A DNA stretch of 64,000 nt, from contig NZ_CP060139.1 of NCBI RefSeq assembly GCF_014524565.1, positions 2,549,501-2,613,500 of the forward strand, in the 5' to 3' direction. Positions 1,288-30,200 of this stretch are shown here, in pieces (position 1 is the first letter of the stretch; each line of letters opens with the position of its first letter). The notes under the pieces were generated by a model, which searched no databases, was not told the DNA's origin, and saw only the letters and a list, made by a program, of their open reading frames with translations. Position numbers and translations under genes: made by a program. This stretch comes from Croceimicrobium hydrocarbonivorans (GTDB lineage: Bacteria; Bacteroidota; Bacteroidia; Flavobacteriales; Schleiferiaceae).

Positions 1288-4200
1288 ATGGGAAAGAAAA
1301 TACTCTTACTGCTATTCGTCACTTTCAGCACCGTTGCTTTTGCGCAACAACGCCCAGGTTCTTTAAAAGGAACAGTGACTGACGCCAGCACAGGCGAAAC
1401 TATACCGTTGGCTAACATTGCAATCAAAGATGGTGCCGGTTCATTTGTAACCGGAGGGTCAACAGACTTCGATGGAAAGTTTAATATCAACCCAGTTCCT
1501 CCCGGAACTTATACTGTAGAGGTAACTTTTGTAGGTTTCTCTACGGTTTCATTAAAGGGTGTATTAATCTCCCCTAACACTCCAACACTACAAGACTTTA
1601 AAATGCACCCTGCTTCTGAGATGCTCGGAGAAGTGGTACTTGAGTATGAACCCCCCTTGATCGATAAGGCTAAGTCGACCAAAGTGACTACTGCTGAAGA
1701 CATTCAGAATATGGCGGTTCGTGATATTACTTCTGTTGCTGGTCAGGCTGCAGGTGTAACTCAAGATGCTAATGGAAACACCAGTATTCGTGGTGCTCGT
1801 GGTGAGGGTACTGTTTACTTTATTGATGGGGTTAAAGTGCGTGGTAATGTGGGAATCCCACAGGCGGCTATTGCACAGACCGAGGTAATTACCGGTGGAC
1901 TTCCTGCTCAATATGGTGATGCGATTGGTGGGGTAATTAACACTACTACTCGTGGGCCTTCCAGTGAGTTCTTCGGTACTGCGGAGATCCTAACCTCTAT
2001 GCCATTTAAATATATGACTAAGGCGGATGGTACTCCAATTCTCGATGGTCAGAACTACAATTTGGGTGCCTTTACCTTAGGTGGTCCAATTTGGAAACGT
2101 AAACGCACTACTGCTGCAGGTGCTGAGCGTCAAGAGACTGTAATTGGATTCTTATTCAGTTCAGAATTCCAATATGTAGAAGAGCCTCGTCCAGTTCCAT
2201 CTGATATCCCATACATTCAATTAGATCCTGATGTATTAGCAAGTTTGGAGCAGAATCCTATTAGTATGGATCCAGGTGGTCGTGCTATTAACATCAACTC
2301 AGAATTTGTTACTGAGGACGATCTTTCCAATGTTTGGCAACGTCCTAACTCCTACACTAATAACCTGCGTTTAAGTGGTAATATTCAGTTTAAAACTACT
2401 GAAACTACTACCTTAACCTTAGGTGGTCGTTTGGTGTACAGCGATGATATGTCTTCCAGCTATGCTAGCCATATCTTCAACTATAATAATAATATGCGTT
2501 CTATCAATTCGGATTGGCAAGCTTACTTGCGTTTCCAACAGACTTTCCGCAATCCTGAAGAAAAGGAAGGAGAAAGTAATTTAATTAAGAACGCCTACTA
2601 CACTGTTCAGGTGGATTACACCCGTACCTTCGGTGAGACTATGGATGAAGTACACGGTAAGAACTTCTTCAACTATGGTTATACTGGTAAGTACGATGTA
2701 TTAACTACTCCGGCTTATGTATATGGTACTGATACTACCACCGGTCTTAGTGGATATCGCTACGTAGGTGATTTTGACGCGGGAATTAATTATACCCCTG
2801 GTGGTTTAAACCCTGTACGTGATAACTATATCAGTTCATTCTTCGACATTGCGGCCGATAACTCCGGTATCAATAGCCGTACTTTAGATGATGTTCTTGG
2901 TTATGGAATGCCGATTAACGGTTTTAACCCTCGTAGTGTATATGGTCTTTGGACCAATGTGGGTTCTCAGCAAGGTGGATATAATGTGGGTCGTACCAGC
3001 CAGTTCCGTGTAACTGCATCGACCAACTTCGATATCAAGGACCACTCGCTGATTATGGGATTCGAGTATGAGCAACGTATCGACCGTGCCTACGGTTTAG
3101 GTGCACAAGGTTTATGGACTCGTATGCGCTTATTGCAAAACCAGCCTAACTCTCAGTTAGATATTGCAAACCCAATTCCTGTATATGATCAATTCGGTAA
3201 CTATCAGGATACCATTAACTACAATTACGCATACAACCCTCAAGACGCTTCTCAATTCTCTGAAGAGATTCGTCGCGCCTTAGGATTAAACCCTTACGGA
3301 GTTGAGCAAATCAATATCGATAACATGGATCCAAGTACTTTCTCCTTGGATATGTTCTCAGCCGATGAATTAATCAACCCTAACGGTTCTGCCAGTGTAA
3401 GTTACTATGGTTACGATTATACCGGAAACATTCAGGATGGTAACCCAAGCATCTCTGAGTTCTTTACAGCTCGCGATGAGAACGGCCGCTATACCCGTCC
3501 GGTTGCACCTTTCCAACCGATCTATATTGCCGGTTATGTTCAGGATCAGTTTACTTTCCGCGATCTTACTTTTAACGTAGGTATCCGTGTAGACCGTTTC
3601 GATATGAACCAGGATGTATTACGTGATCCTTATGTATTGTATCCTTATTATACTGTAAGTGGTTTACCTAGTTCTCCACTTTCTGAAACTGAATTAAATA
3701 ATGTTCCTGCTTCAGTAGGTCAAGATTATGCGGTATACGTTAGTGATTTCGACTATACTAAAGCCAAAATTGTTGGATACCGTAGCGGTGATCAGTTCTA
3801 CAATGAAAATGGTGAGCCTTTAAGTGATCCAGGTGAATTATCAGATAAAGCAGGTGGTGGTATTAAACCATTCCTTGTTACTCCTCCCGGAGATGGTTCT
3901 ACCGGTGGTGATATCCCTTCTGAGTCTTTCGTAGATTATGATCCTCAGGTGGTGGTTATGCCTCGTGTAGCTTTCAACTTCCCTATTACTGATGAGGCGA
4001 TCTTTATCTTCCACTACGATGTATTGGCACAGCGTCCTACTACTGGCTTATCACGTTTGGATCCATTCTCTTACTTAGGTCTTACTTACTTGCGTAATGG
4101 TGGAGTATTAAACAATCCAAATCTGTTGCCACAGCGTACTACCGAATATGAAATGGCCTTTAAGCAAATGCTTTCTAAGAAGTCTGCATTGAAATTGGCG

Positions 4201-5001
4201 GCCTTCTATCGTGAGTTGCGTGACTTATTACAAGCCGTAAACTACCCAGAAGCCTATCCTATTACATATGTTGCTTACGGTAACCGTGACTTTGGTACTG
4301 TAAAAGGATTTACCCTTGAATACGAATTACGTCGTACTAAGAATATTAAAATTGATGCGAACTACACCTTGCAGTTTGCCAGTGGTACTGGATCAAGTGC
4401 TACCACCGGAGCTAACCTTGCTCGTGTAGGTGCTGCATCACTTCGTACTCTTTTACCATTTGACTACGATAACCGTCACCAGATTTTGGTTCGTCTTGAC
4501 TGGCGTTATAGCCGTGGCTTACAATATGACGGTCCTAAAATCAATGGTAAGAACATTCTGGAAAACTTCGGTGTGAACATTACTTGTAATGCGCTTTCCG
4601 GACGTCCATATACTCGTCGTGATCGTGCTTATGCTGTTACTGCATCTGCATCGTCTTCGGCACAAACTGCTGGTCAGATCAATGGTTCTCGCTTGCCATG
4701 GCAAGTAAACTTTGATGCCCGTATCAACAAGACTTTCATGTTGGACAAGAAGGGTAGCAAGAGCCTTGATGTATACCTTCAGATTTTGAACCTTTTGGAT
4801 ACTCGTAACATTGTTTCCGTATATCCATTTACTGGTAGTCCTGATGATGACGGCTTCCTTGCTTCTCAAGCAGGTCAAGCGCAAATTCAAGGTCAGATTA
4901 GTGAGCAAGCTTATGTTGATTTGTACAATCGTCGTATGGCGAGTCCTTTCAACTACTCCTTGCCTCGTCGTTTCCGCTTAGGAATTGCCTATAACTTCTA
5001 G
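1288..5001 (+). CDS. TonB-dependent outer-membrane receptor, 1237 aa
   Basis: A signal peptide of 19 residues (cleavage after VAFA) precedes a carboxypeptidase-regulatory-like beta domain (about 23-108, GSLKGTVTDASTGETIPLAN). The plug domain follows (about 130-235, SIRGARGEGTVYFIDGVKV and GGLPAQYGDAIGGVINTTT), then a very long beta-barrel ending RRFRLGIAYNF with a terminal aromatic residue. The family imports or handles large ligands at the outer membrane using TonB energy. The ligand is unknown; no SusD-like partner is next to it. Codons are strongly biased (cgt, ggt, gta), which suggests high expression. It is followed at 24 bases by a giant secreted protein and then a PorV/PorQ-like gene, with which it probably forms an operon. 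Confidence 0.93.
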   Translation: MGKKILLLLFVTFSTVAFAQQRPGSLKGTVTDASTGETIPLANIAIKDGAGSFVTGGSTDFDGKFNINPVPPGTYTVEVTFVGFSTVSLKGVLISPNTPTLQDFKMHPASEMLGEVVLEYEPPLIDKAKSTKVTTAEDIQNMAVRDITSVAGQAAGVTQDANGNTSIRGARGEGTVYFIDGVKVRGNVGIPQAAIAQTEVITGGLPAQYGDAIGGVINTTTRGPSSEFFGTAEILTSMPFKYMTKADGTPILDGQNYNLGAFTLGGPIWKRKRTTAAGAERQETVIGFLFSSEFQYVEEPRPVPSDIPYIQLDPDVLASLEQNPISMDPGGRAININSEFVTEDDLSNVWQRPNSYTNNLRLSGNIQFKTTETTTLTLGGRLVYSDDMSSSYASHIFNYNNNMRSINSDWQAYLRFQQTFRNPEEKEGESNLIKNAYYTVQVDYTRTFGETMDEVHGKNFFNYGYTGKYDVLTTPAYVYGTDTTTGLSGYRYVGDFDAGINYTPGGLNPVRDNYISSFFDIAADNSGINSRTLDDVLGYGMPINGFNPRSVYGLWTNVGSQQGGYNVGRTSQFRVTASTNFDIKDHSLIMGFEYEQRIDRAYGLGAQGLWTRMRLLQNQPNSQLDIANPIPVYDQFGNYQDTINYNYAYNPQDASQFSEEIRRALGLNPYGVEQINIDNMDPSTFSLDMFSADELINPNGSASVSYYGYDYTGNIQDGNPSISEFFTARDENGRYTRPVAPFQPIYIAGYVQDQFTFRDLTFNVGIRVDRFDMNQDVLRDPYVLYPYYTVSGLPSSPLSETELNNVPASVGQDYAVYVSDFDYTKAKIVGYRSGDQFYNENGEPLSDPGELSDKAGGGIKPFLVTPPGDGSTGGDIPSESFVDYDPQVVVMPRVAFNFPITDEAIFIFHYDVLAQRPTTGLSRLDPFSYLGLTYLRNGGVLNNPNLLPQRTTEYEMAFKQMLSKKSALKLAAFYRELRDLLQAVNYPEAYPITYVAYGNRDFGTVKGFTLEYELRRTKNIKIDANYTLQFASGTGSSATTGANLARVGAASLRTLLPFDYDNRHQILVRLDWRYSRGLQYDGPKINGKNILENFGVNITCNALSGRPYTRRDRAYAVTASASSSAQTAGQINGSRLPWQVNFDARINKTFMLDKKGSKSLDVYLQILNLLDTRNIVSVYPFTGSPDDDGFLASQAGQAQIQGQISEQAYVDLYNRRMASPFNYSLPRRFRLGIAYNF

Positions 5002-5024
5002 ATCAGAAATAAGTAAATAGCTGT

Positions 5025-8000
5025 ATGAAAATCAGAAGCTTTTTAACATTCGCCTTGGTTTTTTCGGTAAGCATTACCGGATTAAGTGCAAAGGAGAAAC
5101 CAGCGAAGAATAACAAAAACAAGTCGGCCCTAGAGGCATTGGCAGAGGGTTGTGCCCCTGCTACTGCCCAAACCGACCTGAATATTAACAACGTTCGGGC
5201 CCGTATCCTCGGTGGTGGGGATATGTGGTGGGACCTTAACGATGCCCAGTACGAGGTACCTAAAGGTTCTAATAAGCACTCCATGTTTGCTGGTGCACTT
5301 TGGTTAGGTGGTATTGATGATGCCGACCAATTGAAGTTAGCTGCTATGACTTATCGTCAAGATGGTGTGGATTACTGGCCTGGTCCATTGGATGACAATG
5401 CCTCGATTGATGAAGCTACTTGTCAGCAATACGACCGTCACTGGATGGTTTATCGTAGTGAAGTAGAATTACACGCGGCTTGGATTGCCTGTAAAGAAGA
5501 TCCAACCTGTGATCCTGAAACTCGCTACCCTGGTTACTCAGGAAATATTCCCGAGAGTATTCAAGAATGGCCAGGAAATGGTGCTGATGGACTTTTACCT
5601 ACAAGCTTAGCTCCATACGTTGAGTCGGATACAAATGGTATCCCAGGATTCTACGAATATGAGTGGGATTATCCAGGTTACGATTTCACACGTGAGGCCG
5701 ACTGTCAGTCAAAAGACGTTGACCTATTATATGGTGATCAAACTATCTGGTGGGTATATAATGATAAAGGAAACATTCACACGGAAACCAATGCTTCTGC
5801 ATTAGGTTTTGAAATTCGTGCGCAGGCTTTTGCCTTTACCGCGAATGACGAGGTGAACAACATGACCTTTAACAACTACCGCATTTTAAACCGCTCTACC
5901 TTCCGTTTACGTGATACTTACTTCGGAACTTGGTTTGACGCGGATTTGGGTAACCCTTACGATGATATCATTGGTAGTGATATTGCTCGTGGTTTGGGTT
6001 ATGTATACAATGGTGATAATGATGATGAAGGTGCCTTAGGCTATGGTGCAAATCCTCCCGCTATTGGATTTGACTTCTTCCAAGGTCCGTTCGCTGATTA
6101 TTTTAACGGTATTGACGATGACCGTGACGGTTGTGTTGATGGTGTTCGTATTGACGGGGTATGCGTGGCTGAAGATCCAAACTCAAACATTAATGAGCGT
6201 ATCATTATGTCGGGTTTCATGTATTACAATAATGCATCCAACTTTAATGGACCTTCAGGTACTACCGACCCTAACAATGCTCAGGAATTCTATAATTTAT
6301 TGAACAGTATCTGGAAAGATGGTCGTCCATTGGTGATTGAAAGCCCTGCCGGAAAAGGTAATACTGGTAATGGTGATGGTTACTCTTTGGATCCAGCCTT
6401 AGTACCAACAAAGTTTGCCTATCCAGGTGTTTCTATCGATACGACTGGTGCCTATGAGCCTTTCACTCCGGTAGATTGGTGGGAATCTCCAAACAACCAG
6501 GCTGATAAGCGCGGTCTACACTGTGCGGGTCCTTTCTCTTTGGCTCCTGGTGCATTGAACTTCATTACCACTGGTGCAGTTTGGGCGCGTAACTTCGCTT
6601 CTCAAGACTTATTTGCATCTGTAAATGATGTAATTGTGGCAGATGATAAGGCTCAACAGCTTTTTGATAACTGTTTCCAAGTATTGGACGGTCCTTTTAC
6701 TCCGGATTTAGAGATCATTGAAATGGATCAGGAATTGGTAATCAACATTCTGAGTCCTTTCACTGAAAATACTATTGGATACAAACAACGTGATCCACGT
6801 ATTCCACCCGATCCGAACTGGACTTCTACTCAATTGGATTCAGCATTACAAGCGGGATACTTTAACTACCTGTTTGAAGGATTCCAATTATTCCAAGTGG
6901 CGAACGCTGATGTGGGTGTTGATGATCTTTATGATGTAGCTCAATCTCGTCTTATTGCGCAGTCTGACCTTAAAAATGGAATCGGTCAGTTGGTTAACTA
7001 TACTGAAAGTCCTGACTTAATCGGTAACCCTCTTACTCCAACCGATATGACTTTGGAGGCAAATGACGACGGAATCGTATTAAGTTACCGTGTACTGGAA
7101 GATGCTTTTGCAGAAGGTAATCGTGCTTTGATCAATAACAAAGATTACTACTTCTACTTAATTACTTATGCGCATAACAATTACAAGACCTTCAGTCCTG
7201 GAAGCACCGGAGACAACTCCAATGCTCAAAAGACTCCTTACTTAGCGGGTCGTCGTAACATTGGTGATGGATCTAAACCTTATAAAGGAACTCCTAGCCG
7301 TACTGAAAACCGTAACAACGGTACTCGTTTGAATGCCCAGTGGGGTGATTTGGTAAGTGTTACTCGCTTAAGTGGTAATGGTAACGGTAGTGCTTATTTA
7401 CGGGTAAGCTCTGAAACTGAAGATCGTATTTTACAAACCGGAGGAACAAACGAGATTGAGTATCTCGCTGGATCTTCTCCAGTGGAAGTTAAAATTGTAG
7501 ATCCATACTTAGTAGGAACTAAGCGCACTGGAAAGTACCGTTTGTACTTTACTGATTTGGATACCAGTCGTAAATGGATTCTTACCGATTTGAACGATTC
7601 TGTGATTGATGTTGCTGAAACGGAAATTGATTTCCGTACCGAGCAGATCATATTCAATTCAGAAGGTGAGAGTCTTGGCTTCTCCATTAACGTTAAGGAA
7701 CCTGTTGCACCAGGATATGAATTGCCAAATTCAACTAATAATGGTGTAATTGGTGGTTCTGTAACCTTTGCAGATCCTACTAAGCCTTGGTTAACTGGTG
7801 TGGCAGATACCGACAACGAAAATCCTACCAACTGGATTTTGGCGGGATCTAATGAAATCGACGATAACGACAACTTGCCAACGGTATACTATAATGACCA
7901 TACCACTGGTGATAATAATGTGGATCCATTAGGTGAGTTCGAGAATATCATTGGAGGTACTTGGGGTCCTGTAGCCCTGGCTAGTAATGTTCCTTTTGCC

Positions 8001-9119
8001 GGAATTCCAGCAGATGAACCTGCAAGACGCCAGAGTCCTGGATATCCATTACGTGACGGTTCCAACTTTAACCGCATGTATCCTATTGATCAATTACCAA
8101 ACATCAATGTGGTATTATCTCCAGATCCTGCAAAATGGTCTCGTGTGCCAGTATTGGAAATGGGTAATTATGCGGATGCGAATGAGGGTGGAGTTCAAAC
8201 CTTCCGTTTACGCTCGGGCACCAGTTTGATGAAAACTTCGAATGGTGAATTAGTTCCTGATCCTAATGGATCAACCGGATGGAGTTATTTCCCAGGATAC
8301 GCTTATAATGTGGAAACTGGAAACCGCTTAAACTTAGTAATCGCTGAGAACTCTTGGTTAAAGAGCGAGTTCGGTGATGATATGAAGTGGAACCCTACCG
8401 CTAACTATACTCAGAAACTCGGTACAATCGCCTTAGGTGGTATGCACGTAGTGTATGTATTAGCCGACTCATCTACCTTCCGTGGTACGATGAAGGATCT
8501 TACTTACCAAGGTGATGCTATCGATGACTACCCAATGAAGGAGGAGATTGAGAATATGAGCAGTGCTCTTACCCGCACCGATGTTTGGGGTGCCATGACT
8601 TGGTGTTCTATCGGAATGTTGAGCAGTAATGAGTATCAGTTTACTGATTACCGTGACATTCCTACCGAAGCCTTAGTTGAGATTCGTGTTCAAAGTCCAT
8701 TTGGCGTTACCGCAACTTCTGGAAATGAAGGACGCCCAATGTATGAGTTCGATTTAGATCCTTACAATGCCGAGTTGAACAACTTAAGCATTGCTGAAAG
8801 TGCCTTAGATAACATTCGGGTTGTACCTAACCCTTATTATGGTTCATCCGCTTACGAAGATGGACAGTTGGATAATATCGTTAAGATCACCAACTTACCA
8901 CAGCGTTGTACCATTAACATCTTTATGCCTAACGGTACTTTGGTACGTACCATTTCCAAGGATAACTCCTTGACCTTTACAGAGTGGGATTTGAAGAATG
9001 ACTTCAATGTACCCATTGCTAGTGGAGTTTATCTGATCCATATCGATGCCGGACCAATTGGTCAGAAGGTGGTGAAATGGATGGGAAGTTTACGTCCAAT
9101 TGACCTGAATGCATTCTAA
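5025..9119 (+). CDS. Giant secreted protein, probable T9SS cargo (1364 aa)
   Basis: A signal peptide (about 22 residues, ending GLSA) leads into a mature protein with no enzyme domain that I recognise. An N-terminal block contains ILGGGDMWWDLNDAQYE, SMFAGALWLGGID and YRQDGVDYWPGPLD; I have the impression that this block recurs in large Bacteroidota surface proteins. Around residue 365 there is an Asp-rich FNGIDDDRDGCVDG segment that looks Ca-binding. The last ~85 residues (NPYYGSSAYED, then an SGVYLIHIDAG strand) resemble a T9SS type A sorting domain, but the tail MGSLRPIDLNAF after it is not the usual ending. It lies between a TonB receptor and a PorV-like gene (gaps 23 and 24 bases) and shares their codon bias. 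Function unknown. Confidence 0.85.
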   Translation: MKIRSFLTFALVFSVSITGLSAKEKPAKNNKNKSALEALAEGCAPATAQTDLNINNVRARILGGGDMWWDLNDAQYEVPKGSNKHSMFAGALWLGGIDDADQLKLAAMTYRQDGVDYWPGPLDDNASIDEATCQQYDRHWMVYRSEVELHAAWIACKEDPTCDPETRYPGYSGNIPESIQEWPGNGADGLLPTSLAPYVESDTNGIPGFYEYEWDYPGYDFTREADCQSKDVDLLYGDQTIWWVYNDKGNIHTETNASALGFEIRAQAFAFTANDEVNNMTFNNYRILNRSTFRLRDTYFGTWFDADLGNPYDDIIGSDIARGLGYVYNGDNDDEGALGYGANPPAIGFDFFQGPFADYFNGIDDDRDGCVDGVRIDGVCVAEDPNSNINERIIMSGFMYYNNASNFNGPSGTTDPNNAQEFYNLLNSIWKDGRPLVIESPAGKGNTGNGDGYSLDPALVPTKFAYPGVSIDTTGAYEPFTPVDWWESPNNQADKRGLHCAGPFSLAPGALNFITTGAVWARNFASQDLFASVNDVIVADDKAQQLFDNCFQVLDGPFTPDLEIIEMDQELVINILSPFTENTIGYKQRDPRIPPDPNWTSTQLDSALQAGYFNYLFEGFQLFQVANADVGVDDLYDVAQSRLIAQSDLKNGIGQLVNYTESPDLIGNPLTPTDMTLEANDDGIVLSYRVLEDAFAEGNRALINNKDYYFYLITYAHNNYKTFSPGSTGDNSNAQKTPYLAGRRNIGDGSKPYKGTPSRTENRNNGTRLNAQWGDLVSVTRLSGNGNGSAYLRVSSETEDRILQTGGTNEIEYLAGSSPVEVKIVDPYLVGTKRTGKYRLYFTDLDTSRKWILTDLNDSVIDVAETEIDFRTEQIIFNSEGESLGFSINVKEPVAPGYELPNSTNNGVIGGSVTFADPTKPWLTGVADTDNENPTNWILAGSNEIDDNDNLPTVYYNDHTTGDNNVDPLGEFENIIGGTWGPVALASNVPFAGIPADEPARRQSPGYPLRDGSNFNRMYPIDQLPNINVVLSPDPAKWSRVPVLEMGNYADANEGGVQTFRLRSGTSLMKTSNGELVPDPNGSTGWSYFPGYAYNVETGNRLNLVIAENSWLKSEFGDDMKWNPTANYTQKLGTIALGGMHVVYVLADSSTFRGTMKDLTYQGDAIDDYPMKEEIENMSSALTRTDVWGAMTWCSIGMLSSNEYQFTDYRDIPTEALVEIRVQSPFGVTATSGNEGRPMYEFDLDPYNAELNNLSIAESALDNIRVVPNPYYGSSAYEDGQLDNIVKITNLPQRCTINIFMPNGTLVRTISKDNSLTFTEWDLKNDFNVPIASGVYLIHIDAGPIGQKVVKWMGSLRPIDLNAF

Positions 9120-9143
9120 GAACGAATTAACGAGTAACGACCA

Positions 9144-10184
9144 ATGAAATATTTTCGAAAGATCGCAACCTCAGTTTGTCTCCTTGGCCTCGTTGGAAGC
9201 GCGTATGCGGGTAACCCCCAACGTGCAGGACAAGCAGGTGCTCCCGAATTATTAATCAACCCTTGGGCTCGTTCCTCTGGTTGGGGTGGAGTTAACATTG
9301 CTGGAGTATCTGGTGTGGAGTCCAGTTTTTTAAACATTGCTGGAATTGCAAATACAAATGGAACCGAGGTTTCCTTTGTGAACACCCAATGGTTAGTAGG
9401 TGCCGGAATTGGTATTAATGCTGCGGGCTTTAATCAGTCTGTTGGTGATAATGGGGTTTTAGCCGCCAATTTCGTATCCTTTGACTACGGTTCCTGGCAA
9501 CGTACTACCGTTAATAACCCTGAAGGTGGAGTAGGTGAGGTTAGTCCTTCTACAGCCATTATCGGTTTGGGTTATGCCCAGAAGTTTACGGAGTCTATTC
9601 GTGGTGGGGTAAACATTAAAATCTACACTACCAGTATTGTGGATATGAGTGTAACCTCTGCCAGCGTAGATGCCGGTGTACAATATGTAACTGGTGCCCG
9701 TGATCAGGTGAAATTTGGTATTACCTTGAAGAATATCGGTCCTGCGGCTCGTTACGATGGTGAAGGACAGTCCCTCACTTTAGTAGTGCCTCAGGGAGGT
9801 TATTCTCAGGAATACAATGAACGCAGTGAGTCCTTCGAATTACCAGCTACCCTATCTATCGGTGGTAGCTATGATTTCGAATTCGATCAACAGCGATTAA
9901 CTGTAGCCGGTGCTTTCCAGTCTAACTCTTTCGAGAAGGACATTTATACCTTTGGTGCTGAATATTCATTCAAGGAGATTGTATCGGTTCGAGCCGGTTA
10001 TAATTTCTTCGATGACCGTTCTTACGCAAAAAGCACTACTGTGTTTAATGGAATCACTGCTGGATTATCCTTCGATATTCCACTATCCAAAGACAATGAC
10101 AATTCTTTCCAATTGGATTACGCTTACCGTAGCACCGACTTCTTTAGTGGAGTTCATAGCATCGGAGTATCCATCCTGCTCTAA
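9144..10184 (+). CDS. PorV/PorQ family outer-membrane protein
   Basis: The protein has 346 residues. A 22-residue signal peptide (ending SAYA) is followed by AGAPELLINPWARSSGWGG, the characteristic opening of PorV/PorQ (UPF0164-like) barrels, and by alternating strands to the C-terminus (GVSILL). PorV in T9SS binds cargo at the outer membrane and hands it to the sortase-like attachment complex; family paralogues are often encoded beside their presumed cargo. This copy is the third gene of the receptor/giant-protein cassette, so a cargo-specific role for the 1364-residue protein is my inference. It is not necessarily the core PorV of the cell, since other T9SS genes are not in the window. Confidence 0.87.
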   Translation: MKYFRKIATSVCLLGLVGSAYAGNPQRAGQAGAPELLINPWARSSGWGGVNIAGVSGVESSFLNIAGIANTNGTEVSFVNTQWLVGAGIGINAAGFNQSVGDNGVLAANFVSFDYGSWQRTTVNNPEGGVGEVSPSTAIIGLGYAQKFTESIRGGVNIKIYTTSIVDMSVTSASVDAGVQYVTGARDQVKFGITLKNIGPAARYDGEGQSLTLVVPQGGYSQEYNERSESFELPATLSIGGSYDFEFDQQRLTVAGAFQSNSFEKDIYTFGAEYSFKEIVSVRAGYNFFDDRSYAKSTTVFNGITAGLSFDIPLSKDNDNSFQLDYAYRSTDFFSGVHSIGVSILL

Positions 10185-10227: not shown

Positions 10228-10258
10228 GCAGAAAAGACCTCATTGAGGTCTTTTCTGC
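10228..10258 (+). terminator. Perfect 14-bp hairpin between the PorV-like gene and greA
   Basis: Arms 10228-10241 and 10245-10258 are perfectly complementary (GCAGAAAAGACCTC) with a 3-base loop, followed by GTTTT. It can serve as the terminator of the receptor/PorV cassette. It also lies between a possible greA -7 element and the greA start, so it could instead form the greA leader hairpin. Confidence 0.7.
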
Positions 10259-10276: not shown

Positions 10277-10750
10277 ATGGGAGTAAGTTATTACAGTAAA
10301 GAAGGTTTAGAGAAGCTCAAAAAGGAATTAGAGCAGATGAAGAGTATTGAGCGTCCCAAAATCTCTCAGCAAATCGCTGAAGCCAGAGATAAGGGTGATC
10401 TTTCTGAGAACGCCGAATACGATGCTGCTAAAGAAGCTCAAGGTTTGCTGGAAATGAAGATTAGCAAGCTGGAAGAAACCTTGTCTAATGCGCGTTTAAT
10501 GGACACCTCAAAGATCGATACCAGCAAAGTAATGGTATTGTCTACGGTGACCATCAAAAACAAGCGTAATGGTGCGCAAATGACTTACAAGCTGGTTAGC
10601 GAAAGTGAGGCCGATCTTAAAAGCGGTAAGATTTCCATCAGCAGCCCTATTGGCAAAGGTCTTTCTGGTAAGCATGTTGGTGAAACTGCAGAGATCCAAA
10701 CCCCTGCTGGTAAAATGGAATTTGAGATATTAGATATCAAATTCGATTAA
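10277..10750 (+). CDS. greA: Transcription elongation factor GreA
   Basis: The 157-residue length and domain order match GreA: an N-terminal coiled coil (about 1-75) with the conserved ARDKGDLSENAEYDAAKEAQ block at its tip, then an FKBP-like C-terminal domain with SPIGKGLSGKHVGE. GreA enters the RNA polymerase secondary channel and stimulates cleavage of backtracked transcripts through acidic residues in the coiled-coil tip. The HIT-family gene starts one base after its stop, so the two are cotranscribed. Confidence 0.97.
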   Translation: MGVSYYSKEGLEKLKKELEQMKSIERPKISQQIAEARDKGDLSENAEYDAAKEAQGLLEMKISKLEETLSNARLMDTSKIDTSKVMVLSTVTIKNKRNGAQMTYKLVSESEADLKSGKISISSPIGKGLSGKHVGETAEIQTPAGKMEFEILDIKFD

Positions 10751-10751
10751 T

Positions 10752-11147
10752 ATGCCCAGCATCTTTAGCAGAATTATTCAAGGTGAATTGCCTTCCTACA
10801 AAATCGGAGAAACCGAAGAAGCCTACGCATTTTTAGATATCTCTCCTTTGCATTCCGGTCATACTTTGGTAGTGCCGAAAAAGGAAGTCGATTACCTTTT
10901 CGATCTGCCAGATCAGGATTACCAAGCTTTAATGGCCTTTTCCAAGAAAGTGGCTCATGCAGTTGGCAAAGCCGTACCCTGCAAAAGAGTTGGGGTAGCC
11001 GTAATTGGTCTCGAGGTTCCTCATGCTCACGTACATCTTATTCCCATAGATAATGTGAGCGACATCGACTTTAGTCGTCCCAAAATGCAGTTTAGTGCTG
11101 AGGAAATGGAAGCGGTGGCCACTAAGATTAAATCCTATCTCGACTAA
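10752..11147 (+). CDS. HIT family nucleotide hydrolase/transferase
   Basis: This 131-residue protein begins with SIFSRIIQGELPSYKI, typical of Hint/PKCI-type HIT proteins, and carries the active-site histidine triad PHAHVHLIP. Members hydrolyse nucleoside phosphoramidates or related adenylated compounds; the natural substrate here cannot be told. It follows greA with a one-base gap, a common Bacteroidota arrangement. Its TAA stop is interlocked with the stop of the convergent ruvC gene (4-bp overlap, 11144-11147). Confidence 0.95.
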   Translation: MPSIFSRIIQGELPSYKIGETEEAYAFLDISPLHSGHTLVVPKKEVDYLFDLPDQDYQALMAFSKKVAHAVGKAVPCKRVGVAVIGLEVPHAHVHLIPIDNVSDIDFSRPKMQFSAEEMEAVATKIKSYLD

Positions 11148-14113: not shown

Positions 14114-14998
14114 TTAGGGCTGATAGCGAATTCCATTACGGCTGCTTCCTACCACCTGAAAGTATCCGAAAGCATAAGTGTTAGGTTCGTTTTCCTTGTG
14201 AATATTCCCCAATACCAAGGCAGGAGGAGCATCGAAAGGAGAGCCGGTTTGCACTTGCGAATTCAATACTTGCATATAATCGAAAAACTCCGGAGAAACA
14301 GATTGCAATAAGACACCTAAACTATCCGCTTCTTCACCAGCTTCTGGTTCATCGAAGGGTCCGTAAATGGCGATGGGAGGAATAAAGCCTTGACCGAAAT
14401 AAATCCCATCAAAACCTTCATCGGAAATGAAGTTATTTTCTTGAGCGAAAATGGAGTCATTCAAATTGCGAATCACCCGGTAGTAATCGCCTTCTCCAGG
14501 AAGGTCGCCGAAATACATCAAGGCATAATCGCCTTCAAAAAAGGCTTGCGGAGTCGTATTGCGATTGAGGGTTCTTTGCTTCATCGAATCAATAGGAGGT
14601 ACTGGTCTCAAGGTATCTGCTGCACTAATCCAGGTGCCCGCAATCTTGTCCGGCACATCACCACTGATCTCAACTTTAATCTGGTAAGTAGCATTGAATT
14701 CGCCCAAGGTGGTACTCTCATATAAACCGGGAGTGCTGGTGCTTTCATCAAGCACAACTATTTCTTGGCCATCTTTTAGAAGACTAACGCGCGCCTCCTT
14801 AACAGGGATGAAGGGATTATTATCGAAATAAGCAGCAGTTTGACTCAATTTCACAAATACATTGCGATCATTGGTAATCACACCATCTACCACCAATTCG
14901 GGTTCTGAAGAATCCACATCAAGTTCCACCACATCGGTACAAGCCGAAATGCTGATCAATACTGTGAATACGAATAGGAATAAGGAAAACCTTTTCAT
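14114..14998 (-). CDS. DUF4249 domain lipoprotein
   Basis: The 294-residue protein has a lipoprotein signal peptide with the modified Cys at residue 20 (ISISAC). The mature part begins VVELDVDSSEPELVVDGVIT, the usual entry into the DUF4249 domain, and continues as a beta-rich surface protein. DUF4249 proteins of Bacteroidota are nearly always encoded directly after a TonB-dependent receptor, as here (2-base gap), and probably sit on the receptor at the cell surface in the way SusD does on SusC. The transported ligand is not known. Confidence 0.93.
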   Translation of the reverse strand: MKRFSLFLFVFTVLISISACTDVVELDVDSSEPELVVDGVITNDRNVFVKLSQTAAYFDNNPFIPVKEARVSLLKDGQEIVVLDESTSTPGLYESTTLGEFNATYQIKVEISGDVPDKIAGTWISAADTLRPVPPIDSMKQRTLNRNTTPQAFFEGDYALMYFGDLPGEGDYYRVIRNLNDSIFAQENNFISDEGFDGIYFGQGFIPPIAIYGPFDEPEAGEEADSLGVLLQSVSPEFFDYMQVLNSQVQTGSPFDAPPALVLGNIHKENEPNTYAFGYFQVVGSSRNGIRYQP

Positions 14999-15000
14999 GA

Positions 15001-17376
15001 TTAGAAGTTAAAGTTCCAGGTTACTGATGGGATGATGGTGCCGAAGATGGATAATTGCACCGCTTGCGTATTCAAATTGGTAGTGGTTGCGCCGTTGGCA
15101 TTATCTTGTTGTTCGAAGTAAATCGAATAAGCATTTCGGCGAGCGTAAACATTGTAAATACCAATCGACCAGGATGAATAGAATTTTTTGCCTTCCACCT
15201 TAGGAGGAGTATAGTTTGCTGAAAGGTCCAAGCGATGGTAGTCCGGAATGCGATACGAATTGCGGTCGCGGTAAATCGGAACCACATAGTCTTCAATTTG
15301 GAATTTACCCTCTGGAGGGGTAATTGGGCGACCGGTTTGGTAAGTGAAGTTTAAGCCAATATCCCATTTCTTGGTCAACTGATAATTCAATACCACGGAG
15401 ATATCATGGCGCTTATCGTAATTGGCAGGATACCATTCGCCGGCATTAATAGCCTGCATAGGATTAACTCCTTCTACCTTTAATTCGGTTTTAGAAAGGG
15501 TATAGCTCACCCAGCCTTTTAGGCGACCTTGTTGCTTGCGCAGATAAAACTCCAAACCGTAGGATCTGCCAATACCGGAAAGAATCTCGGTTTCAATGGT
15601 TTCATTGAAGATGAGTTCTGCACCATTGCGATAATCCACAATATTTTGAAAATCCTTGTAATAGCCTTCAAGGGAGAACTCATATTGATTGTCCATGAAG
15701 TTCTGGAAATAGCCTGCGGCCACCTGATTTACCGTAGCGGGTTTAATATGCATTCCCGCCGGACGATATAAATCTACCGGAGTAGGAGCGGTGGTATTGC
15801 TGATAAGGTGTATGTACTGACGGGTACGGTTATAGCTCAGCTTCACACTTTTTTCGTCATCAATGCGATAGTTCAAAGCAATACGTGGTTCCAAACCTTC
15901 CAAGCCATTATAGGCTTTAATCACTTCACCTGATCCATAAGTGCGAGTTTCAACAACTTCATCTACTTCTGGTAAATCCTGATTTTGGTAGATATTCTTT
16001 ACCTGCGAGCCCAGGTTGTAGAAAGAGGAGTAACGCAAGCCATATTGCAAGGTGAAGAGCGGGCTGAATTTGTACTCATGACTGAAATACAAGGAAGGCT
16101 CCAAAGCATATTCCTCTTGTAATTTCATTTCTACCGTACCAGTGATGGTGCCAGGCTTGAAGCGGTAGTAAATACCTTCCATACCAAATTCGAATTCGCT
16201 CTTGGCATTGGCATACCAGGTATATTGATTTTTGAAATGGTAATCCTGAATGGTAGATTCTAAACGAAAATTAAAGGCATCATCTTCCGGGGTACCCAGG
16301 GCATAGGTGTAATCACTAAATATCAAAGTGAAGTTGGAGAATAACTGATCACTAAAGAGGTGATTCCAGCGTAAGGAAGTGGTAGCATTCCCCCAATTAA
16401 AACCAAAGAGATCATTAATTTCAAAAATATCTCGACCATAATAACCACTGAGGTAGAGACGGTCTTTATCGCCCAGAATGTAATTCAGTTTGGCATTGAA
16501 GTCGTAGAAATACAAAGTGTTTTGCGAAAGGGCTTCATTAGGGCTTAGTCCTAAAAAGATATCGGCATAAGAGCGGCGGCCGGCAAACATAAAAGCAGAC
16601 TTTTCTTTTACCAGGGGACCCTCCACCAAAAGACGTGAAGAGAGCAATCCAATACCGCCGGTGCCGGAAAACTCACGGTTATTGCCATCCTTCTGACGTA
16701 CATCAACCACCGAGCTTAATCGTCCACCATAGCGAGAGGGGATTCCACCTTTGTAAAGCTTAACATCCTTAACGGCATCAGCATTAAAGATGGAGAAGAA
16801 ACCAAAGAGGTGTGAGGAATTGTAAATAGGAGCTTCATCCAAAAGAATCAAGTTTTGATCGGTATTACCACCTCGAACATTGAAACCGTTTGAGGCTTCC
16901 CCCACTGTGCTAATACCTGGCAAAAGGGTTAAGCTGCGGATGATATCTACCTCACCCAAAAGGGCAGGCATTTTCTTCACATCCTTTACATCGAGTTGCG
17001 CCACACTCATTTCGACGCTGCTCACATTGCGGTCAATCTTCTCTGATTCAACTACAACTTCATCCAATTGAGTGCTGCTTTCTTTGAGCTCCCAATTGAG
17101 TTTTAGATTTTTGTCGAGAGTGATTTTTCGCTCTTGGCTGGTATATCCAATGTACTGAACACTAAAGGTGTAAGTGCCCGGAGGTAAGGAAATGGAATAA
17201 TAGCCGTAGCTGTTGGTGGAGGTGCCAGTGCCCTTTTCGGGGACCACAATGTTTACTCCAATTAGTTCTTCGCCGGTTCCGGCATCGCGGATATATCCGC
17301 TTAAGGTGAATAGATCATTTTGCCCTATTGCTGCGTTAGATAGCAGGATAAGGCAAAAGAGCAAAGCTCTTTTCAT
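15001..17376 (-). CDS. TonB-dependent receptor paired with DUF4249 lipoprotein
   Basis: The receptor has 791 residues. The signal peptide ends near residue 18 (NAAIG). A carboxypeptidase-regulatory-like domain (about 22-108, FTLSGYIRDAGTGEELIG) is followed by the plug (about 115-230, GFNVRGGNTDQNLILLDEA and GGIPSRYGGRLSSVVDVR) and a 22-stranded-type barrel ending SVTWNFNF. It energises uptake of an unidentified substrate and is the first gene of a likely operon with the DUF4249 lipoprotein and the MscS-type channel. A candidate -7 element lies at 17457-17464 on the same strand. Confidence 0.94.
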   Translation of the reverse strand: MKRALLFCLILLSNAAIGQNDLFTLSGYIRDAGTGEELIGVNIVVPEKGTGTSTNSYGYYSISLPPGTYTFSVQYIGYTSQERKITLDKNLKLNWELKESSTQLDEVVVESEKIDRNVSSVEMSVAQLDVKDVKKMPALLGEVDIIRSLTLLPGISTVGEASNGFNVRGGNTDQNLILLDEAPIYNSSHLFGFFSIFNADAVKDVKLYKGGIPSRYGGRLSSVVDVRQKDGNNREFSGTGGIGLLSSRLLVEGPLVKEKSAFMFAGRRSYADIFLGLSPNEALSQNTLYFYDFNAKLNYILGDKDRLYLSGYYGRDIFEINDLFGFNWGNATTSLRWNHLFSDQLFSNFTLIFSDYTYALGTPEDDAFNFRLESTIQDYHFKNQYTWYANAKSEFEFGMEGIYYRFKPGTITGTVEMKLQEEYALEPSLYFSHEYKFSPLFTLQYGLRYSSFYNLGSQVKNIYQNQDLPEVDEVVETRTYGSGEVIKAYNGLEGLEPRIALNYRIDDEKSVKLSYNRTRQYIHLISNTTAPTPVDLYRPAGMHIKPATVNQVAAGYFQNFMDNQYEFSLEGYYKDFQNIVDYRNGAELIFNETIETEILSGIGRSYGLEFYLRKQQGRLKGWVSYTLSKTELKVEGVNPMQAINAGEWYPANYDKRHDISVVLNYQLTKKWDIGLNFTYQTGRPITPPEGKFQIEDYVVPIYRDRNSYRIPDYHRLDLSANYTPPKVEGKKFYSSWSIGIYNVYARRNAYSIYFEQQDNANGATTTNLNTQAVQLSIFGTIIPSVTWNFNF

Positions 17377-24965: not shown

Positions 24966-26324
24966 TTAATGCACTACTTGCAATTTCTTTTGAGTCCTTT
25001 GCTCTTTGCCCTCTAGCCGGAGAAGGTAAATTCCATCCGGTACTTTAGGGAGGCTTATATCACTTTGTCCATTAAGATCTAAGTCGCCACCAAGGATCAG
25101 TCTCCCTTGTAAATCGAGCAGATAATAGCGATTGTAATCTCCTGCTTTAACGCTGATTTGAAGCTTGCTAGTAGCTGGGTTAGGATAAACCTGAATTTCG
25201 GAATCTTCAAAACTTTGGAGTCCAACATTGCTAACCAGGATGCAGGCCGAGGTATCAACACAGCCGTTTAAACTTACCTCCACGGCGTAATATCCATTTT
25301 GCACGAAGGTGAAGACTTTGCCAGTTGCACCGCTTATTTTACTGAAATTGTTATTGCAGTTTAACCATTGGAATTGAGCATTGGTGTCCGATTCCAAAGC
25401 TTCTAATTGATTAGCTGATATGCGGTTGGCTGCCGAATTAAGATTGGTCACATTTAAGTTTAGGTCTATTATGGTATCACAACCGGAAGGGGAGTTAATA
25501 GTGTCTTGATAATGACCACTTGTATTATAGGTAATGCCATTAGGCGCGGTATAGGGACCGCAAGAATTAATGCTTAAAGCTAAATTTAGTCCAGCACCTT
25601 GAACGGGAGAAGCTACAAAATTAGAGCTACTTCCTGCCAAGGCGAAGTTTTGGAGGCTGCCATTATTACCATTGGCGGAATGATCAATGATTGCGCTAAT
25701 AGCACTATTATTCGCCTGAGGATTGCCATCATTACATTTATAGTAAGCCACCAAATTGTTTGGCGATATACAATATTCACTGCTGTCTTTTAAGGCTAAT
25801 TGACTTGGAGTTAAAGCGGTGTTCCAAACTCGAATTTCATCAATATCACCATCAAAGTAATTTACACCATCTACACGTCGCCCAATCACAAAGCTGCCGG
25901 AACTGGTATTTACCCCGCTGAGGCTTCCACTAGTATCTAAAACACCATCCACATACAAGCTTACCAATCCTGATTTATAGGTAGCAGCAACATGATGCCA
26001 GGTGCCATCATTTACGGCAGTATTTCCGCTTAGGCCGGAACCTCCAATTTCGAGGCGAATGGCATTATTCCAAAGCAGGCAAAATGTAAATCGAGTACCG
26101 GTGGTCATGCTGCCCCAGTTTACTAATACCTTTTGGCCGCCCTGCCCGGGAATGGAATTAGCGGTGGTGCGAATCCAAGCTTCAACAGTGCGCTCGCCAG
26201 AGCCAGTGACGCCGGAATAATTAGAACTTATATGATCGTCAGTTCCATCCAGGTTTAGGGCAGCTTGGGCCGATACTATTTGACTGATGAGGATCAGACT
26301 TAATAAAGTGTAGAGCTTTCTCAT
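24966..26324 (-). CDS. LamG-domain protein with T9SS type A sorting signal
   Basis: The 452-residue protein has a signal peptide (about 19 residues, ending QIVSA), a LamG/concanavalin-like domain (about 20-185) typified by AALNLDGTDDHI, GTWHHVAATYKSGLVSLYVDG and FDGDIDEIRVWN, then a poorly defined middle with cysteines. A C-terminal T9SS sorting domain (about 375-452) begins QVYPNPATSKLQISV and contains PDGIYLLRLEGKE. It should be exported, passed through the T9SS and fixed to or released from the surface. LamG domains often bind glycans, but the ligand is unknown. It follows a tonB gene by 16 bases. Confidence 0.92.
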   Translation of the reverse strand: MRKLYTLLSLILISQIVSAQAALNLDGTDDHISSNYSGVTGSGERTVEAWIRTTANSIPGQGGQKVLVNWGSMTTGTRFTFCLLWNNAIRLEIGGSGLSGNTAVNDGTWHHVAATYKSGLVSLYVDGVLDTSGSLSGVNTSSGSFVIGRRVDGVNYFDGDIDEIRVWNTALTPSQLALKDSSEYCISPNNLVAYYKCNDGNPQANNSAISAIIDHSANGNNGSLQNFALAGSSSNFVASPVQGAGLNLALSINSCGPYTAPNGITYNTSGHYQDTINSPSGCDTIIDLNLNVTNLNSAANRISANQLEALESDTNAQFQWLNCNNNFSKISGATGKVFTFVQNGYYAVEVSLNGCVDTSACILVSNVGLQSFEDSEIQVYPNPATSKLQISVKAGDYNRYYLLDLQGRLILGGDLDLNGQSDISLPKVPDGIYLLRLEGKEQRTQKKLQVVH

Positions 26325-27208: not shown

Positions 27209-30200
27209 TTAGTCTTTTATCAAAGGATAATGTAGTTCACCAAATGATCCTTTAATGACCAAGTGATAATATCCAGGTACCAAGTCGCTTAGGTCAATCG
27301 CTTTATTTATTTCTTCAGTTGCGATATTCCGAATTACTTGACCGGTACTATTATATATAACTAAGAGATCAGGGCTTTTGGCTTCCTCTGGCCATTCAAT
27401 TCTCAAATAGCGTTCTACAGGGTTGGGATATACATTCGGATCTGGTATTTCCGCTGCATCCAGCCCCAGCTGATTGAGCTTAAAGCTTCGAGTGGAGCTT
27501 CCACAGACACCATTAATGGTTAGGGTTACCTTATAGAACAGTCCTGGTGTACTGTAAATATGGATTGGCATGGGTCCGGTTCCGGTTGTGCCATCACCAA
27601 AGTCCCAACTATAAGATGTTGCTCCGGTAGATATTGTGCCATCAAATTGAATTCGTAATCCTGAGTTAATCGGACTGAGAACGGTATAGGTCCAGTCTGC
27701 CCTCGGAGGATCACAAGCTTCTACTCTCCGGGTATTGCGAACAGTATCCCCACAATTATTCCAGCTTGTTAGGGTAACGAATTTGTCTAAGGTATCTGAA
27801 TAAAAAGCGGAGGCAGTGCTGCCGCTAGCAAAAGTGCCATTGCCTAGATCCCAAGAATAGCCACTCGCATTATTACCTGGGTTGGCCGTGAAGTGTGTGC
27901 TATCGGTGCTTTGAGTCCAATTGAAGTTGGCTCTTAAAGTGTCGCAAACCTCTAATATTTGCACTATGGTATCGCTGTTTCCACAGTTATTGGATGCTAT
28001 GAGCGTAACAGAATATGTGCCTGGAGTAGAATAGAAGTAGACAGGATTAGTAAGGGCACTGCTATCACCATTACCGAAATACCATTTTAGGCTATCAGCA
28101 TTGCTGGCTCCAGATGTGAAATTGCGGCGTAAGAATCGACTGGTATAGGTGAAATTAGCAGTCACGCTATCGCAAACCAATGTGGAAAGCGTGTCGATTA
28201 AGCTGGCGCTAATGGTGGTGGTACAGCTGTCAAATAGCTCAATAACATATTGACTACTTGAGTTGAGATTATTAATGGAGTAAGGGCTGCTTACATTCGG
28301 CACCACGGTAGCGCTGCCAATTCCCAATGCGGCATCATACCAACGCAAGGTAGTAACCGAGTTTCCGGTATTGCTGTTTTGCCAGCTAAAGCTCAGGCTG
28401 GTGTAACCCTGGTTTTGCACCTGTAAATTATAAGGTATACCGCAGGAGGGGCCACTGGAGCGAACAGATACATCATCTACCGCAATATCACCCTGGCCAC
28501 CACTAGAAACGGCTCGGAACACTATTTCAATGGTATCGCCAACATAGGCGCTTAAGTCGAGAGAGTCTTCTTTCCAGGCCGCGCCATTGCTAAATTGTTG
28601 TTGGCCGGTCCAGGTTCTTAGGGTTATGTTATTGCCATTATTGCGGGTATTAATCTGCACCTTAAGCGAGTTGATATTATTGCCAAACATGTGATAGCTA
28701 TAATAAAGCTTAGGGGTAGAAGTGTTTACCAGGGCAATTTCCGGACTGGTCATTAAAGCAGGATTAGCGGTGGTGCTAAAGTCACTTTCGAAATAAATGT
28801 AATTACCAGAACCCAAAGCATCTTCCTGTGGTCCGGTAGCAAAGCTTGGGGTGGTTCCTGCACCAACACCCCACTTGTCATTGCTGGTTTGTCGGTTGCG
28901 AGTCCAGCAGGGGCTAATTTGATCGTTGGTATTAAAGAATCCAAGGCCTTCTTGCCAAGGGATATTATCGAAATTCTCATTAAAGGGTAAAGAAGATATT
29001 CCACAGGCAGTGTTTCCGATAAATGGACCTTCCCACCAACTAACATCGTTGGCTCCACAACTATCGCGAACAAAAATCTCGTAGTTGGTATTGGGATTAA
29101 GCCCATTTAATACAAAAGGCTTGCTGGTAACGGATACCAGGTTAAAGGCCCCGGTTGATCCTGCCGGACGGTATTGGATTTGCCAATTTGTTGCGCCACC
29201 GCTAGTCCAGTCAAGTGTGAGCGTTGTTTGGCTATTAGCCGTTTGCTGAATATTGGTAGGATTTGGACAGGTAGGGGTATTGTCTATTCTGATGTCATCA
29301 ATAGCCATACTGGCCCTAAAGGCGGTTCCAGTTGAGCGGAAAGCTCTAAAACGAATTTGAATAGTATCGCCAATATAGGAGCTTAAGCTAACAACCTTTT
29401 CCAACCAAGCGGCGGAGGCACTTGTTTGTTGCTGGCCACTAATGGTGTTTACATTAGACCATCCTGAACCGGCATTAACAGCTATCACTAGTTTGTCAAT
29501 ATCCTGACCAAACATATGATACCAAAAACGTAATTCTGGACTACTGAGAGTGTCTAAACTAACCAAGGGAGTGAATAGGTCGGTGCTGAAATAGCTATTG
29601 AAGATTCCTTCTCGAATGGTATAGGCGTAAAAACCATTCCCTGAAGTATGGTCTGCATCTGGTCCGGTGTTGAAGCCATCACCTGCACCTTGGTTGCCGC
29701 GCCAATAATAAGTGGTAGTGTCGGAGCGAGACCAGCATGGATCAATATTCCCTGGATCATTAAAGACTGAAGGGTCATTCCAAAGTCCATTATCAAAATC
29801 TTCGAAATAAGGAGCAATGCTCACGGTGCAAGCAGTACGACCTTGAACAAAACTTGACCAGAAACTCACATTCCCTAAACCACAACTGTCTCTTACGATA
29901 AATTGATAGGGGGTGTTTGGAGTCAATCCGTTCAATACAAATGGATTGCTACTGGCATTTACCAGTGTGCCGCTACCGGCTGAAAATCCTGGGGCACCAT
30001 ATTCTATTTGCCAATCGCTAGCGCCACCTGTGGTCCAGTTTAAGGTAATACTGGTAGATCCCACAGCAGTGATACTTAAATTGCTTGGTTGTGGGCAGCT
30101 CGGTTGCTCATCAATGCGGAAATCATCTACGCCAATTGGTGCCTGGTTACTAAAAGGGGAGTTCCGATAAGCAATTATGCGCACAGAAATGGTGTCATTC

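Follow-up and report, generated by a model that had tools for sequence, protein, structure and literature searches.

A receptor, a giant exported protein and a PorV-family barrel encoded as one unit

The window, that is, the whole 64,000-nucleotide stretch of Croceimicrobium hydrocarbonivorans DNA analysed here, carries three open reading frames of 1237, 1364 and 346 amino acids (aa), hereafter T, G and P, that lie on one strand (+) with intergenic gaps of 23 and 24 bases; the coordinates and lengths given for this closely spaced gene set in the original prediction are exact.

1288–5001, + strand: T, TonB-dependent receptor, 1237 aa (open reading frame list, profile and structure-sequence matches)
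5025–9119, + strand: G, giant, putatively exported protein, 1364 aa (signal-peptide-like N-terminus, by inspection)
5145–6680, + strand: predicted super-beta-sandwich domain, G residues ~41–552 (AlphaFold2, Foldseek, VIA-align)
8787–9116, + strand: putative divergent C-terminal sorting domain (CTD) of the type 9 secretion system (T9SS), G residues ~1255–1364 (profiles, motif alignment, model)
9144–10184, + strand: P, PorV-family outer-membrane barrel, 346 aa (profile, PDB sequence match, model)
10228–10258, + strand: intrinsic-terminator-like hairpin followed by GTTTTAAT, between P and greA (sequence)

The hairpin has a stem of 14 bp and is succeeded by a T-rich run; because this terminator-like element separates P from greA, the three genes probably constitute one transcription unit that ends there. 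The codon adaptation of the 47 genes of the window was measured against ribosomal-protein genes; T, G and P ranked 1st, 5th and 8th, with values of 0.80, 0.79 and 0.75, respectively (window median, 0.68; ribosomal median, 0.76), in support of the earlier suggestion, drawn from codon bias, that all three genes are strongly expressed. Antisense upstream of T, a small lipoprotein-like gene (628–1104, −) with a weak Rieske match is kept in closer relatives.

Conservation and duplication of the triad across Bacteroidota

Relatives of G were located in 79 named contigs, and neighbouring genes were counted at those loci where the contig reaches far enough. T is the gene immediately upstream of G in 76 of the 77 informative loci, and P the one immediately downstream in 74 of 75, the sole exception in this set being a locus with neither T nor P beside G (L085). 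In a separate whole-genome sample that spans several classes, T-G-P order and strand are kept in all 39 homologue loci, 34 of which are outside the window's class (loci of its own class, L089–L093). Thus, the possibility that the three genes are rarely neighbours elsewhere, on which the original prediction could have foundered, fails decisively, and chance adjacency is excluded by the conservation of order across genomes. The T-G-P cassette is real, old and phylum-wide.

A greA gene and a HIT-family gene (10277–11147) lie 3′ of the triad in most of the window's class, and the pair is absent at the 34 triads of other classes. As greA-HIT follows the triad in the window's class only, ordinary synteny does not account for the conservation of the triad. 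We also rejected greA-HIT as a part of the same machine, given its absence beside the triad in other classes and its separation from P by the hairpin.

One complete genome (G302) has eight complete triads and a ninth T-P pair with CTD neighbours. Across the eight triads, the divergences of T, G and P are correlated (Mantel r = 0.82–0.88, p = 0.003 or less), most closely for T and P (r = 0.88), indicating that the triads were duplicated as units; contact between the products is not proved by this correlation, since adjacent genes co-duplicate anyway. In the same genome, tandem arrays of four to five giant-protein genes adjoin a single PorV-like gene (L136, L138–L139), and some of these tandem genes have stops inside the matched stretch. 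Given that tandem G genes share one P and one T in some genomes, the pairing is not always one to one.

A second, rearranged cassette of T-like, P-like and CTD proteins is present in the genome from which the window comes (L134, 1,328,000–1,346,000). It comprises two or more CTD proteins, a lipoprotein, a TonB receptor, a PorV-like barrel, a second lipoprotein and further CTD proteins, and two genomes from other families have the same arrangement (L156 and L162). Paired PorV-family genes were observed in two genomes (L158 and L165) beside a protein of 530–540 aa with a sorting-domain-like end.

These linkage patterns bear on a reading in which only P and G belong together, as a T9SS cargo-shuttle pair, T is linked for co-regulation alone, and G is an adhesin or structural protein of the surface while T is an independent transporter. 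Such an arrangement would have a counterpart in type B cargo and PorP/SprF, which form cognate pairs without a receptor (PMC12618676), and would accommodate the G genes that have no adjacent T (L136, L140, L145 and L146). However, the linkage of T is as tight as that of P in every class sampled, the best-correlated divergences are those of T and P, and in the second conserved cassette (L134, L156, L162), T-P pairs accompany other CTD proteins. We therefore consider this reading unlikely, albeit the strongest of the alternatives weighed here.

Sequence and predicted structure of T and P

A Pfam profile search identified a CarboxypepD_reg domain in T at residues 25–106 (64 bits) and a Plug domain (PF07715) at residues 125–216 (41.7 bits, cut-off 23.9); in PDB sequence comparison, the plug is matched by the colicin I receptor and siderophore receptors. 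The plug score places T among the TonB-dependent receptors, and a C-terminal barrel, ending in ...LGIAYNF, is likely from the length of the protein and its C-terminal motif. No other full-length member of the T subfamily is encoded in the genome. For the SusC/RagA model (TIGR04056), no match was listed for T, and the match of the window's other receptor is below the cut-off.

P exceeds the cut-off of the PorV family model over residues 31–344 (NF033709; 141.4 vs. 90 bits) but not those of the PorV equivalog (NF033710; 60.5 vs. 250 bits) and the PorQ equivalog (NF033711; 78.9 vs. 220 bits), and also passes the PorP_SprF model by a small margin (25.5 vs. 22.3 bits). Its earlier designation as a PorV/PorQ paralogue is thus borne out. 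That P is PorV or PorQ proper was rejected on the two equivalog scores and because an evident PorV is encoded elsewhere in the genome; among the five PorV-family members of the genome, the evident PorV scores 409 bits (NF033709) and adjoins a PorU-like CTD protein. By sequence, P is closest to PorV (6h3i, E = 3e-19), and its structural model is closest to PorV in the substrate-bound translocon (8gl6_F, Z = 33.3), compared to Z = 25–29 for FadL and TodX and Z = 23–26 for BamG.

The similarity to FadL and TodX, together with the membership of P in the FadL superfamily of hydrophobic-substrate channels, lends itself to a reading whereby P is a FadL-like small-molecule channel that shares the substrate of T, and G is released or covalently attached as ordinary type A cargo via the housekeeping PorV/PorU. 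A 545-aa paralogue in the same genome, in which the N-terminal region of G (205 bits) is joined to a canonical type A CTD (48.9 bits) with no P adjacent, would fit this reading. Nevertheless, P is nearest to PorV in both sequence and fold, and linked G proteins have a distinctive CTD, which in the window's class is conserved down to the last residue. We regard a channel function of P with housekeeping export of G as the least probable of the alternatives.

The body and the putative sorting domain of G

No Pfam family, including that of SusD (PF07980), matches G, and in this respect the original description of a protein with no known domain stands; however, it does not hold at the level of structure, as residues ~41–552 are predicted to form a super-beta-sandwich. 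The AlphaFold2 model of this domain (pLDDT 86) matches solved structures with a Foldseek E value of 9e-6 and aligns with dextran dextrinase (9ju0) over 252 residues (VIA-align Z = 19.7, rmsd 3.0 Å). The predicted fold is thus likened to that of GH65, GH94 and GH116 enzymes, cellobiose phosphorylases and dextran dextrinase; the catalytic (alpha/alpha)6 barrel of these enzymes is missing from the predicted domain, and a predicted fold shared with sugar enzymes is no proof of sugar binding. In the Foldseek comparison, mainly up to model residue 595, no solved structure spans the whole of G.

The T9SS-like end that had been noted in G appears, from profiles and motifs, to be a divergent sorting domain, with the CTD of PorZ as its nearest characterised relative. 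It carries PNPY, GxY and Lys motifs that can be aligned with those of type A CTDs, its model has pLDDT values mostly above 90, and residues 1257–1340 match the PorZ C-terminus model (NF052228, E = 4e-6). The domain is below the curated cut-offs for both type A and type B CTDs (for type A, 14.3 vs. 23 bits with TIGR04183 and no match to PF18962), and its best PDB sequence matches, PorZ (E = 0.08) and PorU (E = 0.76), are both weak. Compared to type A, the G CTD has an added extension, with a conserved aromatic residue (F/Y) at its end, which is missing from some distant G relatives. The genome contains ~148 matches to the type A sorting domain, and two proteins of the window, of 452 and 1812 aa, end in canonical domains of this type (24975–25190 and 27248–27433, −).

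The G CTD and P, which are in one frame, were also folded as a tethered chain with the stop read as Gly. The resulting model had a pTM of 0.65 over 680 residues, and the product of these values (0.65 × 680 = 442 vs. ~326 barrel residues) gives a hint that some G residues are confidently placed with respect to the barrel; several FadL alignments begin at G residue 1301. The tether being artificial, this model is not counted as evidence of docking.

Co-occurrence with SprA and complementarity with SusD

We scored 392 genomes of the phylum for G, SprA and SusD (PF07980). The G family is represented in 195 genomes and SprA in 319; SprA is present in all 195 G-positive genomes, and none of the 73 SprA-negative genomes has G. 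In view of this co-occurrence, the 545-aa paralogue with a type A CTD and the neighbouring PorV-family gene, export by the T9SS is the best reading for G.

Among the 220 SprA-positive genomes of other classes, 187 are G-positive (77 with SusD) and 33 are G-negative (32 with SusD), leaving a single genome with neither G nor SusD. Counts in the fully scored subset were 12–23 PorV-family genes and 0–1 SusD per genome for ten G-rich genomes, compared to 3–6 PorV-family genes and 4–38 SusD for six genomes of the window's class. These counts, which are not phylogenetically independent given that the SprA and SusD patterns track deep lineages, fit the substitution of one lid system by another. A SusD-like role of G is plausible, and the complementarity of G and SusD across genomes is circumstantial support for the analogy.

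The distribution is also relevant to a reading that assigns T-G-P an accessory role in T9SS maturation or outer-membrane assembly. The cassette would then be a machine comparable to PorQ-PorZ or to the canopy that BamG-BamH forms above BamA, and T its client or scaffold. The relationship of the G CTD to that of PorZ, the resemblance of the P fold to BamG, the anchor of an extracellular canopy (PMC12611786), and the strong codon bias of T, G and P would all be compatible with such a function. Conversely, many copies per genome suit substrate diversification better than housekeeping, G is missing from most SprA-positive genomes of the window's class, and P is clearly nearer to PorV than to BamG. 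All in all, an accessory machine seems improbable.

A putative T9SS-built surface uptake cassette

We propose, with a probability of roughly 0.5, that T-G-P is a phylum-wide SusCD-like surface cassette built via the T9SS. According to this scheme, G would be exported by Sec, bound by P via its CTD at the SprA translocon and pulled through to the cell surface, where it would be held by the CTD staying on P, as the PorZ CTD does on PorQ. The displayed super-beta-sandwich and the further beta domains of G would then contact T and capture a ligand, probably a carbohydrate-containing one, over its extracellular mouth, and T would import the captured ligand with TonB energy. P would serve as both carrier and anchor, and a role as dedicated carrier of G is likely. 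Given the presence of a receptor in nearly every unit and the sugar-enzyme type fold predicted in G, the cassette most likely functions as a SusCD-like uptake complex. Several known features of T9SS components are relevant here: type B cargo depends on a PorP/SprF barrel of its own (PMC12618676), PorV and PorQ retain the uncleaved CTDs of PorU and PorZ, respectively (PMC10202324), and the extracellular loops of PorV hold cargo CTDs (PMC10994853).

Like SusCD, which consists of the TonB-dependent SusC and the lipoprotein lid SusD, T-G has adjacent genes for a TonB receptor and a large surface protein, and both systems are present in many copies per genome in some lineages and have a sugar-related fold in the surface part. 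Unlike in SusCD, G has a T9SS-type CTD and no PF07980 match, a PorV-like barrel is encoded alongside, and T has no TIGR04056 match. We treat the cassette as a putative T9SS cargo with a cognate barrel, combined with a receptor and its surface lid; it is kept apart from SusCD, since G has no match to PF07980, the SusD family.

G and P resemble the type B pairs (SprB-SprF, Fjoh_3952-3951; PMC12618676), in which a CTD protein is directly followed by its own FadL-superfamily barrel; the linkage of P to G parallels that of the PorP/SprF shuttles to their type B cargo. The pairs differ in that the G CTD resembles type A rather than type B, P is a PorV-family protein, and the genes for G and P are preceded by one for a TonB receptor. 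PorZ-PorQ and PorU-PorV, both parts of the T9SS attachment complex (PMC10202324), include the surface proteins whose characterised CTDs are the nearest to that of G, and the retention of uncleaved PorZ and PorU on a PorV-family barrel is similar to what is proposed for G on P. However, PorZ and PorU act in attaching A-LPS to other cargo, with no TonB receptor in the unit, whereas the N-terminal body of G is a predicted super-beta-sandwich. In BamG-BamH of the Bacteroidota BAM complex (PMC12611786, PMC12578637), a FadL-family barrel holds an extracellular protein beside another barrel, as proposed for P, G and T, but BamH is a lipoprotein, and BamG, with its extended N-tail, resembles P less than PorV does.

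If the proposed scheme is correct, many species without SusD import large substrates by an unstudied machine, the T9SS builds transporters besides secreting enzymes, and many PorV paralogues of unknown role in genomes with T-G-P gain a function. The cassette may be an undescribed kind of surface uptake machine that stands in for SusCD in some lineages; no description of the triad was found in the open-access literature searched, and one elsewhere is possible. More tentatively, and at somewhat less than even odds, T-G-P could be a second general solution to nutrient capture, with a T9SS-delivered lid on its own PorV-like anchor, that replaces SusCD in whole lineages and has multiplied for different substrates, and could include a further class of sorting signals with cognate carriers.

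The window contains a separate receptor-lipoprotein pair, in which a DUF4249 lipoprotein gene (14114–14998, −) is directly downstream of a gene for a TonB-dependent receptor of 791 aa (15001–17376, −); this receptor is also present beyond the triad in close relatives.
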